From Methylomarinovum tepidoasis (GTDB lineage Bacteria; Pseudomonadota; Gammaproteobacteria; Methylococcales; Methylothermaceae): a DNA stretch of 64,000 nucleotides. A model generated the notes under the pieces. That model saw nothing but the letters and a program-made list of their open reading frames with translations. It did no database searches and was not told the DNA's origin. Where the stretch lies: contig NZ_AP024718.1 of NCBI RefSeq assembly GCF_030294985.1, forward strand, positions 2,247,001 through 2,311,000. Direction: 5' to 3'. The translations under genes were made by a program, and so were the position numbers. Of this stretch, positions 13,063-34,395 are shown in pieces. The number at the start of each line of letters is the position of its first letter. The first letter of the stretch is position 1.

Positions 13063-14642
13063 AATCTCATGTTGATGGCGGCGATGGCCCGATTTTCCCG
13101 GTAATCGAAATCGCTGTCCCCGTTCTGACGCTGATGACGATATTCAACGTAGGCGTTGAGGTCTTCGGTAATCCGCCGGTTCAGGCGCAGCGAGGCGGTC
13201 CAGTAGATACTACCGTCGTCATCGGCATTGATAGTAGCATCGCCCGTATCCGAACGCTGCCAGGAACCACGAACGTAGAGCGTAGTCCGCCGCCCTCCCT
13301 GCCAGCGCCAGGTACCCGACAGCCCCAACACCTTGGATTCATCTTTGCTAACCTGATAGATCCGGCGGGAACGGTACAGACGCAGGGTGACACTGTGACG
13401 GGCAAAGTTTCGGGTCACGTTGAGTTCGAAACGCTTGCGCAGAAAAACCTCGTCGACCAGGGCGGGCAGGTCGATCGGAACCAACAAGGGCTGGCGCGTC
13501 GCTGGATCGACGATGGGATTGCCGGCGGCATCGACGACCGGAATGACCTGCTGCTGGAGCAGAACCCGCTGGGTGGTAGTGATCTCCTCCAAGTAGCGTC
13601 CCTGCCAAGTAGTATGCCTGCCCCGATGTGAGAACGAACCCTGGAACACATCCCCGGTCAGGCTGCCGACGTCGTTGTGGCGGTATGTTCCCTGCAGACG
13701 GGTGCGCCGGGTCGGCTCCAGGATCACGGTCGCGAACAAATTGTTGCCGTACCCACCTTCGATCGTCAGCATCCGGCTCGGTGACCAGGTGGCGCCGACA
13801 GTATAGAAGAAGCCGTTGTTGTTGTTGTCGGTCGTACTCTGGAAGTCGTTATCGACCCATCCTCCCTGAACGAAGGTGCTGAACTTGCGTCGTAAACGAT
13901 AGCTGATCCGCCCCACGGCGTTGCGGAAATCCACGTTGGCAGCACCCCTGCGCTCGTCATGCTCGTTGCGGAAGCCGAACTGCCATGTCAGGGTACGAAA
14001 ACGGCTGCCACTTTGGAGAATGGCGGATTGGGTATAGGTATGCGTGGTCGAAGCCTCCCCTTCGGAAGCAGTGAAGTAATTGTATCCCAGCCGGAATTCG
14101 CCTTCGGCATACCCTCCCCAATGAGGGCGCCAGTAGGGACTGACGCCAAAAGTATAAAAATCCGCGCGGTTGCCGGTATTGCTCAGATTGTCACTGAATT
14201 GCTGCTGATGAGGATCGATCAGGGTTTGGCCCGTACTGGCCCGAGCCTCGACGAAAACCGAATGCTTGATCACCTCGGCCAACGCATTGGCCTGAAGCTG
14301 GTGACGGAGATCGTAACCACGGCCTTTTTGGGTGGAAAAGATATTCTGCATCCGATAGTTGAGATTGAGGTGCACACGCCCCTTCTGATTCGGTCCGAAA
14401 CTGGCCCGGCCGACACTGCCGGGGCTGATCCCCCCCTGCCCGAAACCGGCGGAACCAATATTTACTCCACCGAAGCCTCCTCCACCGAAGCCTCCTCCAC
14501 CGAAGCCTCCTCCACCGAAGCCTCCTCCACCGAAGCCTCCTCCACCGAAGCCTCCTCCACCGAAGCCTCCTCCACCGAAGCCTCCTCCACCGAAGCCTCC
14601 TCCACCGAAGCCTCCTCCACCAGCATTACCGGTTCCCGGTAG
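13059..14642 (-). pseudogene. XrtA-associated outer-membrane barrel protein, 3' part separated by IS481 insertion
   Basis: C-terminal 527 codons of a gene cut by the IS at 14649-15764. The frame stays open into the element up to 14756 but has no signal peptide there. It begins with NLPGTGNAGG, then ten GGGGF repeats, then a beta-barrel-like body rich in alternating aromatic and polar residues (YYFGV-type strands, SRRIYQVSKDESKVLGLSG) and a terminal AINMRF ending in Phe, the usual outer-membrane barrel signature. Joined to the fragment at 15765-15956 it gives a 591-residue in-frame protein. It belongs to the uncharacterised PEP-CTERM-associated outer-membrane family and probably acts in polysaccharide export. 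As it stands the product should not be exported. Confidence 0.88.
14464..14621. repeat. 15-bp tandem repeat encoding (GGGGF)10
   Basis: Nine perfect copies of the 15-base unit CCTCCTCCACCGAAG occupy 14476-14610, with degenerate partial copies on each side. On the minus strand they encode ten GGGGF pentapeptides in the barrel protein, close to its N-terminal region. Because the unit is 15 bases, gain or loss of copies by slippage keeps the frame. There are no spacers, so it is not a CRISPR array. Confidence 0.95.
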
Positions 14643-24391: not shown

Positions 24392-25294
24392 ATGCGCGAT
24401 TACAAGCTCTCCCATCTCAAGGAACTGGAAGCCGAAAGCATCCACATCATCCGGGAAGTGGCCGCCGAATTCGACAACCCGGTGATGCTCTACTCCATCG
24501 GCAAGGATTCCTCGGTCATGCTCCATCTGGCCAAAAAGGCCTTCTACCCCGGCAAGCCGCCGTTTCCCCTGCTGCACGTGGACACCACCTGGAAGTTCCG
24601 GGAGATGTACCAGCTGCGCGACGAGGTAGCCAAGGAGTTCGACCTCATCGTCTATCACAACCCGGAAGCCGAGGCATTGGGGATCAATCCCTTCGACCAC
24701 GGCAGCAAGAAGCACACCGACCTGTGGAAGACCGAAGGGCTCAAGCAGGCCCTGGACAAATACGGCTTCGACGCCGCCTTCGGTGGGGCCCGTCGCGATG
24801 AGGAAAAGTCCCGCGCCAAGGAACGGGTCTATTCCTTCCGCGACCGCCATCACCGCTGGGATCCCAAGAACCAGCGCCCGGAGCTGTGGAACCTCTACAA
24901 CGGCCGTCACAACAAGGGCGAGAGCATCCGCGTCTTCCCCCTCTCCAACTGGACCGAGCTGGACGTGTGGCTCTACATCTATCTGGAGAACATTCCCATC
25001 GTTCCCCTGTATTTCGCCAAGGAACGGCCGGTGGTCGAGCGTGAGGGCACCTGGATCATGGTGGACGACGAGCGCATGCGCCTGGAACCCGGGGAGAAAC
25101 CACAGATGAAGCGGGTGCGTTTCCGCACCTTGGGCTGCTATCCCCTCACCGGCGCCATCGAATCCAGCGCCGCCACCCTGCCGGAGATCATCCAGGAAAT
25201 GCTGCTGGCCAAGACCTCCGAGCGCCAGGGACGGCTGATCGACCACGACCAGGCCGGCTCCATGGAAGACAAGAAACGGGAAGGTTACTTCTGA
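24392..25294 (+). CDS. cysD: Sulfate adenylyltransferase subunit 2
   Basis: 300 residues, full length. PAPS-reductase-like ATP pyrophosphatase fold with the PP-loop SIGKDSSVM (35-43), [31 protein letters not shown], and [15 protein letters not shown]-type motif. With CysN it converts sulfate and ATP to adenosine 5'-phosphosulfate. The downstream cysN is separated by 166 bases holding a structured palindromic repeat rather than the usual close spacing. Confidence 0.97.
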
Positions 25295-25305
25295 GAAGTG
25301 TTCGA

Positions 25306-25411
25306 AGGCGGTCGGGTATTCATCCGGCGGGACGCTGTCAATCCATCCCTGGACGCTCGGTACTCGGCCGTCCAGGCCGAGTACGCCCGCCGGCCGAACA
25401 CCCGACCGCCT
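25306..25411. repeat. Structured palindromic repeat, copy A (cysD-cysN gap)
   Basis: Three nested perfect inverted repeats: outer AGGCGGTCGGGT (25306-25317) with ACCCGACCGCCT (25400-25411); middle CCGGCGGG (25324-25331) with CCCGCCGG (25386-25393); inner GTACTCGGCC (25360-25369) with GGCCGAGTAC (25375-25384). The core around CCATCCCTGGACGCTCG is shared with copy B on the opposite strand. It may form a large RNA hairpin in the cysDN transcript. Confidence 0.85.
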
Positions 25412-25460
25412 GACGCATCTGTAAGATTCGAAGCAAGAAGCGATACGAGACATTATTGAC

Positions 25461-27098
25461 ATGGCCACCGAATCCCTCATCGAAACCGACATCGAAGCCT
25501 ACCTGCGTCAGCACCAGGACAAGGAACTGCTACGCTTCCTCACCTGCGGCAGCGTGGACGACGGCAAAAGCACCCTCATCGGCCGCCTCCTCCACGATAC
25601 CCAGATGATCTACGAGGATCAGCTCAAAAGCCTGAAGAGAGACAGCGAGCGCATGGGCACCACCGGCGAGGAACTGGATCTGGCCCTGCTGGTGGACGGC
25701 CTCCAGGCCGAGCGCGAACAAGGCATCACCATCGACGTGGCTTACCGCTACTTCTCCACCGACAAGCGCAAGTTCATCATCGCCGACACCCCTGGCCACG
25801 AGCAGTACACCCGCAACATGGCCACCGGCGCCTCCACCTGCGAACTGGCGGTGATCCTCATCGACGCCCGCAAGGGGGTGCTGACCCAGACCCGGCGCCA
25901 CAGCTTCATCGTCTCCCTGCTCGGAATCAAGCACATCGTCGTCGCCGTCAACAAGATGGATCTGATGGACTGGGATCAGCAGGTCTTCGACCGTATCCGC
26001 ACCGACTACCTCACGCTGGCCGAGCGCCTCGAGCTTTCCGACGTCCGCTTCATCCCGGTCTCGGCCCTCAAGGGCGACAACGTGGTCAACCCCAGCGCCA
26101 ACATGCCCTGGTACACCGGTCCCACCCTGCTGGAAGTGCTGGAAACGGTCGAGATCGCCAAGGACCGCAACCTCGAGGACTTTCGCTTTCCGGTCCAGTA
26201 CGTCAACCGCCCCCATCTGGATTTCCGCGGTTTCAGCGGCACCCTCGCCGGGGGCATCGTCCGCCCCGGCGACGCGATCACCGTGCTACCCTCGGGGCAG
26301 ACCAGCCGAGTCAAAGAGATCGTCACCTACGACGGCAATCTGACCGAAGCCTTCCCGCCGATGGCCGTCACCCTCACTCTGGAAGACGAAATCGACGTCA
26401 GCCGCGGCGACATGATCGTCCATTCGGACAACCTGCCCCACGTGGCCGACCGCTGCCGTGCCCACATCGTGTGGATGACGGAAAAACCCCTGGTGCCCGG
26501 CCGGCAGTATGTCATCAAGCAGACGACCCGCACCGTCACCGGCTCGGTGTCGCGCATTCTCCACCGCACCGACGTCAACACGCTGGAGGAAACCCCGGCC
26601 GAGCAGCTGGCGATGAACGAGATCGGCCTGTGCGAGCTGGCCTTCAACGCTCCCCTTGCGTTCGACCCGTACGAACGCTGCAAGGGCACCGGCGCCTTCA
26701 TCCTCATTGACCGCCTCACCAACGTCACCGTCGGCGCCGGCATGATCACCGGTCTGTCCGAGGACGAAACCCTACAGCGGCCGGTCACCCCGGAAGAGCG
26801 CGCAATCCGCTTCGGCCAGCAGCCCGCCGTCGTCGCCCTCACCGGCGGCCACGCCCGGGAACTGGCCTATCAGCTGGAGCGGCGCCTGTTCGACACCGGC
26901 CACGCCGCCACCGTCCTCGATGCCGAACAGCTGCCGGAGATCTCCACCACCATCGCCACGGCCCTGACCCACGCCGGTCTCATCGTGCTGTGGCCGCAGC
27001 CGCAGACCGTCCCGGAAGGGGCCCTAACGCTGGATACCGACCGGCTCGACCTGAATCAGGCGCTCAAGGCCATCAAGGAGGCCGGCATCGTCGCTTAG
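25461..27098 (+). CDS. cysN: Sulfate adenylyltransferase subunit 1, with decayed APS-kinase-like tail
   Basis: 545 residues, about 70 longer than E. coli CysN and shorter than CysNC fusions. GTPase domain: P-loop GSVDDGKST (30-38), [20 protein letters not shown]; then EF-Tu-like domains 2 and 3. Residues 455-545 (PAVVALTGG onward) follow the layout of APS kinase (start of sheet, [17 protein letters not shown]), but the GLSGAGKST P-loop is missing. So GTP hydrolysis driving CysD should work, while APS kinase activity should not. Its 3' end overlaps convergent comEC by 75 bases. Confidence 0.95.
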
Positions 27099-33461: not shown

Positions 33462-33941
33462 ATGGCCAGCAAGAAAAAAAACAAGGATTCCGGCAACGTC
33501 ATCGCCGTCAACCGGCGCGCGCGGCACGACTATTTCATCGAGGAAACCTACGAGGCCGGATTGGCCCTGGAGGGCTGGGAGGTCAAGAGCCTGCGCGCCG
33601 GCCGGGCCAGCCTGGCGGAGAGCTACGTCCTCATCAAGGACGGCGAGGCCTGGCTGTTCGGCGCCCACATCACCCCGCTGCCCTCGGCCTCGACCCACGT
33701 GCAAGCGGATCCCACCCGCACCCGCAAGCTGTTGCTGCACAAGCAGGAGCTGCACAAGCTCATCGGCCAGGTGGAACGGCGCGGCTACACGCTGGTGCCG
33801 CTGAAGCTGTACTGGAAGAAGAATTGGGTCAAGCTGGAAATTGGCCTTGCCAAGGGCAAGAAGCTTTACGACAAGCGCGCCGTCGAGCGTGAACGCGACT
33901 GGCAGCGGGAGAAACAACGTCTCGTCAAGCAGACCCGGTAA
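33462..33941 (+). CDS. smpB: SsrA-binding protein SmpB
   Basis: 159 residues. Landmarks: [37 protein letters not shown], and C-terminal basic tail [18 protein letters not shown]. It binds tmRNA and rescues stalled ribosomes. No ssrA gene was found beside it. It is followed by palindromic repeat copy B. Confidence 0.97.
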
Positions 33942-33965
33942 AGACCAACAATGATCCAAGCCGCA

Positions 33966-34067
33966 GATGGCGGCCAGGTGTCCGCAGGGTGTACCCGGCC
34001 TGGATGGCCGGGTATCGAGCGTCCAGGGATGGCTTCACAGGGTCACGGAGGACGCCTGGCCGCCATC
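33966..34067. repeat. Structured palindromic repeat, copy B (smpB-merP gap)
   Basis: Outer 13-bp perfect inverted repeat GATGGCGGCCAGG (33966-33978) with CCTGGCCGCCATC (34055-34067); inner GTACCCGGCC (33991-34000) with GGCCGGGTAT (34006-34015). Read on the minus strand, the core matches copy A with only four substitutions over about 40 bases. It lies between convergent smpB and merP and may serve as a transcription stop. Confidence 0.85.
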
Positions 34068-34089
34068 CGCACCCAGCTGACAGCGACGC

Positions 34090-34395
34090 CTACCGCTTCA
34101 CCGCTGCCGGATAGCCGGCATCGCTGACCGCCTGGGCCAGCCGCTCCGGCGACACCCGGGCCGGATCGAACACTACCTCCGCGGTTCCCCGCGCCATGTC
34201 CACCTTGGCGGACTGCACCCCCTCCACCTGCTTGAGGGCGTTCTCCACTGTGTATTTGCACATGGCGCAGCTCATGTTCTTCACCGTCAGGGTCACCTGC
34301 TGCAGCGGCCGGGCGGCTTCCGGCGCCACCGCCGCAGGAGAGAGCGGGAGCCATCCCAGCGTCAGAACCGTTATCAGAATCGCACCTCGCAACAT
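34090..34395 (-). CDS. merP: Periplasmic mercury-binding protein MerP
   Basis: 101 residues: signal peptide (MLRGAILITVLTLGWLPLSP region, cleavage near residue 22-24) and one heavy-metal-associated domain with the metal motif MSCAMCKYTV (Cys43, Cys46). MerP binds Hg(II) in the periplasm and passes it to MerT. It follows merT by 13 bases. Confidence 0.92.
   Translation of the reverse strand: MLRGAILITVLTLGWLPLSPAAVAPEAARPLQQVTLTVKNMSCAMCKYTVENALKQVEGVQSAKVDMARGTAEVVFDPARVSPERLAQAVSDAGYPAAVKR

Follow-up and report, generated by a model that had tools for sequence, protein, structure and literature searches.

The gap between cysD and cysN in Methylomarinovum tepidoasis holds a long palindrome, a relative of which lies on the opposite strand downstream of smpB, and this locus raises the question of what kind of element the two copies are and what keeps their arms complementary. 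The window, as the term is used here, is the whole stretch of 64,000 nucleotides that was analyzed. Matches to a covariance model placed copy A at 25305-25412 on the plus strand and copy B at 33963-34070 on the minus strand, where the original prediction had put them, and the elements and their neighboring genes are as follows.

24392-25294, plus strand: cysD, whose stop codon lies 10 nt ahead of copy A
25305-25412, plus strand: copy A, whole element, in the cysD-cysN gap (covariance model R1, 108 bits), with its core inverted in the sister species
25305-25331, plus strand: copy A, 5' arm (24 nt) and conserved GGG; partner 25386-25412, with 20 of 24 arm positions paired
25329-25388, plus strand: copy A, conserved core of 60 nt; the sister-species core is identical at 60 of 60 positions but inverted
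25342-25353, plus strand: copy A, small hairpin TCC-ATCCCT-GGA, with covariation T-A/C-G and C-G/A-T
25361-25383, plus strand: copy A, inner hairpin TACTCGGCC-GTCCA-GGCCGAGTA, from folding and covariation
25386-25412, plus strand: copy A, 3' CCC and arm
25461-27098, plus strand: cysN
33462-33941, plus strand: smpB, whose stop codon lies 21 nt ahead of copy B
33963-34070, minus strand: copy B, whole element, amid convergent smpB and the MerP-like gene (covariance model R1, 101.7 bits)
33987-34046, minus strand: copy B, conserved core
33992-34014, minus strand: copy B, inner hairpin TACCCGGCC-ATCCA-GGCCGGGTA, from folding and covariation
34022-34033, minus strand: copy B, small hairpin, placed from the structure of a 31-copy alignment
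34090-34395, minus strand: gene for a MerP-like heavy-metal-binding protein, convergent with smpB and named from sequence resemblance only

As had been predicted, the two copies share a core with four differences, which fall within a common piece of about 43 nt. The window holds exactly two occurrences of the 17-mer CCATCCCTGGACGCTCG, where 0.05 are expected with up to two mismatches, and both strands fold far better than shuffled sequences (z -7.2 and -4.5). The outer stems, which had been taken to be perfectly paired, are nearly but not fully so (20/24 positions in copy A and 21/24 in copy B). Elsewhere in the window, positions 14455-14634 carry about 10 tandem 15-nt units of CCGAAGCCTCCTCCA.

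The covariance model returned 47 copies of the family in the chromosome of M. tepidoasis IN45, rather than only the two in the window. With up to two mismatches the 17-mer occupies 25 places in the genome, against 1 for a reversed-pattern control, and all except one of these (L016) lie within long palindromes or their remnants. An alignment of 31 copies resolves three helices, namely an outer helix of 24-bp arms plus GGG/CCC, a small hairpin of the form TCC-ATCCCT-GGA, and a 9-bp inner hairpin. In each unit of the family, about 60 nt of conserved core hold the two small hairpins and are flanked by outer arms of about 25 bp, whose pairing stops abruptly about 22-24 bp beyond the GGG/CCC to give a palindrome of about 108 bp. 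In the same alignment, 26 of the 27 outer pairs covary, with changes on both sides, and 313 double-change cells were counted versus 91 after shuffling. The compensatory T-A/C-G exchange originally noted in the inner stem proved genuine and is found again throughout the family (C-G in 13 copies, T-A in 13, G-C in 4), and the proposal of a dispersed structured family was borne out in this genome and across many genera. The copies at 522132 and 681984 lie in frame inside long ORFs, the latter in that of an RND-type efflux pump; at 522132 the sister-species reading frame is likewise open, with the core inverted.

Sequence comparison shows homology between the core and YPAL/RU-2, a palindromic repeat of Yersinia. 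The model of the Rfam family Ysr224 (RF02770) matches 47 places in the genome at E<=10, with a best E of 9.8e-6, and 42 of these places are family copies, so that 42 of the 47 copies are recognized, all below threshold (best 33.1 bits vs a gathering score of 70). When the core is aligned to the printed RU-2 sequence the score is 50, and no shuffled sequence exceeded 34. We regard the window copies as relatives of YPAL because of the Ysr224 matches and because the RU-2 alignment lies far above the shuffles. Both families have a core of the type GACGC-GT-AA-CATCC-TG-GCTCGA and a long outer stem, and both are intergenic, gene-downstream, and multicopy. As described in a review and a genus survey, however, YPAL/RU-2 is about 167-168 bp long, compared with a palindrome of about 108 bp here and about 116-170 bp of sequence missing at empty sites, and is reported from Yersinia and Erwinia rather than from many gamma-proteobacterial genera; copy-specific arms and cores that invert between species distinguish the present family. 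Ysr224 is listed as one of the bacterial sRNAs of highest prevalence (PMC9029176) and carries a Yersinia sRNA annotation, yet its consensus, which spans the core and one arm of our family, resembles the printed RU-2/YPAL sequence over the initial two thirds of the latter and appears to be a fragment of that repeat.

Other assignments were less satisfactory. At gathering score, neither the window nor any of 20 related loci gave an Rfam match. TwoAYGGAY (RF01731) resembles the family in having a long outer stem and two inner hairpins with TCC-type loops, but this identity was rejected, as the genome contains two weak RF01731 matches and neither is at a family copy. A second palindromic family (GGGAAGGGTCTGC...), of the same plan and weakly matching TwoAYGGAY, occurs in the chromosome near 106327, 166479, 1132663, 1429252, 1677270, 1907586, and 2000341; it keeps its arm sequence between copies, unlike the family of copies A and B. 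A MITE was also rejected: the terminal inverted repeats are not common to the copies, the arms having a pairwise identity of 0.38 in M. tepidoasis, compared with 0.77 for the core. In a search for a transposase that might serve the family none was found.

The family is widely distributed, being present in at least 70 of 370 sampled gamma-proteobacterial genomes and at least 60 of 273 genera, with up to 10 candidates scored per genome. Within the genus the number of copies per genome ranges from 0 to 62, and outside it the family was also found in Marinobacter. No match to the 55-nt core consensus was obtained in plasmid and phage collections, although so short a query makes this weak evidence.

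In M. tepidoasis the two arms of one copy match each other at 20.7 of 24 positions, whereas arms combined across copies match at 12.2 of 24. Pairing in the family is almost purely Watson-Crick, G-T accounting for 0-3% of arm pairs. Three other genomes yielded no G-T among 418 arm pairs, and other genomes contain near-identical cores with perfectly paired arms that differ wholly or in part. At one locus compared among orthologues from ten Marinobacter species, the arms are 96.8% Watson-Crick and 0.9% G-T, their identity (0.50) being lower than that of the core (0.82) and of the flanks (0.65-0.74). The arm identities, the count from three genomes, and the Marinobacter figures were taken straight from the sequences.

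Comparison with the sister species Methylomarinovum caldicuralii IT-9, in which 23 sites are filled in both genomes, reveals how the copies change in place. Because the sister-species stretches were partly chosen around known copies, the relative numbers of filled and empty sites are biased, but orientation among the filled sites is not. The core is inverted in place at 7 of the 23 sites. Five cases are secure, namely copy A (60/60), 1637954 (59/60), and 1001732, 522132, and 1507690 (93-95%), and two, 310621 and 1625866, are less so. Among 460 arm pairs, 53 have both members changed and still pair (29 transversion-type and 24 transition-type), 20 differ to or from G-T, and in 39 a change on one side has broken the pair. 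The two-sided changes are about as fast as the divergence at fourfold sites of the sister pair, 11.2%, while the arms as a whole diverge by about 17% according to our estimate, which exceeds the fourfold rate. The two-sided changes are bunched in a few copies (overdispersed per copy, p 0.00015) and are weakly associated with the flips (p 0.065). In genome G119 the core also appears flipped, inside a larger repeat, whereas the Marinobacter orthologues at the locus compared keep a single orientation; a second close species pair (G002, G005) provided no orthologous flanks in the stretches examined.

These observations are, in our judgment, fairly probably explained if copies A and B represent a mobile palindrome of the YPAL type, with template switching at the DNA level between the arms as the main process that preserves their pairing. 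The inherited part would be the core of about 60 nt with its two small hairpins, while the outer arms would be free in sequence and their complementarity would be kept by a DNA-level self-repair of the palindrome. The arms might fold into a hairpin at the replication fork, where the polymerase, having begun on one arm, would take the other as its template, copying a change in one arm into its partner and sometimes inverting the core. Copies collect shortly downstream of stop codons, at places that would put up with a long hairpin, and a hairpin in this position may shield the end of the upstream mRNA or dampen read-through. Template switching between the arms of inverted repeats is known to homogenize the arms and invert the spacers (PMC8604942; PMC8794818), and it predicts the pattern seen here, namely block-wise arm homogenization, pure Watson-Crick pairing, and spacer inversion; we infer that it is the cause. 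In these two papers, however, quasipalindrome template-switch mutagenesis concerns yeast and RNA genes, whereas here it would be the main process by which a bacterial repeat family evolves. Some observations speak against the switching: the arm divergence of the sister pair exceeds the fourfold rate, the 39 one-sided arm breaks persist, the Marinobacter locus is without flips, and the link between flips and arm changes is weak. Because switching copies existing changes only, the bursts of up to eight two-sided changes per copy need mutations that had accumulated beforehand or were clustered, and the origin of new arm sequence is not accounted for by switching alone.

One alternative, which is unlikely but still carries some weight, is that the family is a transcribed structured RNA, such as an mRNA 3'-end stabilizer or attenuator, whose pairing is kept by selection and compensatory point mutations without any special DNA process. 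The genomic placement agrees with this explanation. With genes called by a simple codon-usage script rather than a curated annotation, the 47 copies, including some that overlap predicted genes, lie in 38 tandem, 8 convergent, and 1 divergent gene pair, the median distance from stop codon to copy is 18 nt, with 41 of 49 distances no greater than 35 nt, and divergent pairs are avoided (1/44 vs 30% expected, p 3.6e-6). The strong folding and the class-wide covariation point the same way, although the alignment across the class was fitted to the covariance model and leans toward it, and YPAL is reported to be cotranscribed and to act on the upstream mRNA (PMC2229807). Compensatory RNA evolution, however, predicts G-U intermediates, double changes mostly of the transition type, slower-than-neutral change, and one fixed strand, and all four predictions fail or are weak: G-T pairs are nearly absent from the arms, transversion-type double changes are at least as frequent as transition-type ones, the paired changes come in bursts at the pace of fourfold sites, and the core lies at random in either orientation with respect to transcription (20 sense, 18 antisense) and is flipped between the sister species. 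Selection on RNA structure is not the best reading of the covariation, from which the original prediction had argued for selection on structure, because the arms are Watson-Crick, the two-sided changes run at a neutral pace, and the core flips between sisters. Nor did a tuning of the CysD:CysN ratio find support, given that the cysD-cysN gap has no element in five other members of the genus and that copies occur in either orientation beside unrelated genes.

Another possibility, distinctly unlikely, is that the arms are not inherited at all and that every insertion of a core makes new perfect arms, either from the target or through hairpin processing by some enzyme. One genome fits this idea, its cores being 98.9% identical (0.989) while each copy has unrelated perfect arms of 24-31 bp, with an arm identity of 0.41 and 0 G-T pairs. 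For the copies that the sister lacks, no source copy resembling them in the arms was found, and the site of copy B in M. caldicuralii, where the copy is missing, retains one arm-like stretch, as expected for a preinsertion target; YPAL targets, too, reportedly lie at or beside dyad symmetry (PMC2229807). On the other hand, the clean empty sites at 97450, 1065998, 2370911, and 1011284 have no arm, which disfavors the simplest version, and the copies in several genomes have an arm consensus in common and an arm length that is nearly fixed. Long palindromes without a core are rare in this genome, and for the same reason, their rarity in 777 kb, the insertion of cores into ready-made palindromes was rejected. 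A related and doubtful variant holds that a hairpin process tied to the spread of the mobile palindrome remakes both arms, which again are not inherited; with the arms remade in each copy and the core alone transmitted, the element would be recognized by its shape, not by its arm sequence. YPAL has a target site duplication of 3-26 bp, and in the present family the direct repeats ATG, CCACT, TCAGT, and CGGTCTGAA flank four polymorphic copies, but slippage deletion would leave the same trace; empty sites do not distinguish insertion from deletion, and no mobility event in the family is polarized. Both window copies are absent from the relatives beyond the sister pair.

That the family is a REP/BIME family mobilized by a RAYT transposase, as the REP-like label of the original prediction implied, is hardly credible: the copies are palindromic and intergenic and follow genes, as do REPs (PMC3733652) and CGTC-tagged REPs, but they are much longer, their anatomy contains no GTAG-tagged unit of 20-40 bp, and no Y1 transposase was found on the chromosome, the sole Y1-type frame in the genome being one of 140 codons on a plasmid (contig C2, 6491-6850).

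The main result is therefore the kinship with YPAL together with an unusual, DNA-level mode of evolution. Covariation as strong as that seen here is normally read as proof of a functional RNA, but in this family it was probably written at the DNA level because there are almost no G-U pairs, the strand is random, and the cores flip. The pattern looks like DNA copying errors in a palindrome rather than a tuned RNA switch. This is a caution for RNA discovery that relies on covariation only, and Ysr224 appears to be part of this repeat. The family offers dozens of natural sites per genome where template switching in palindromes could be measured.
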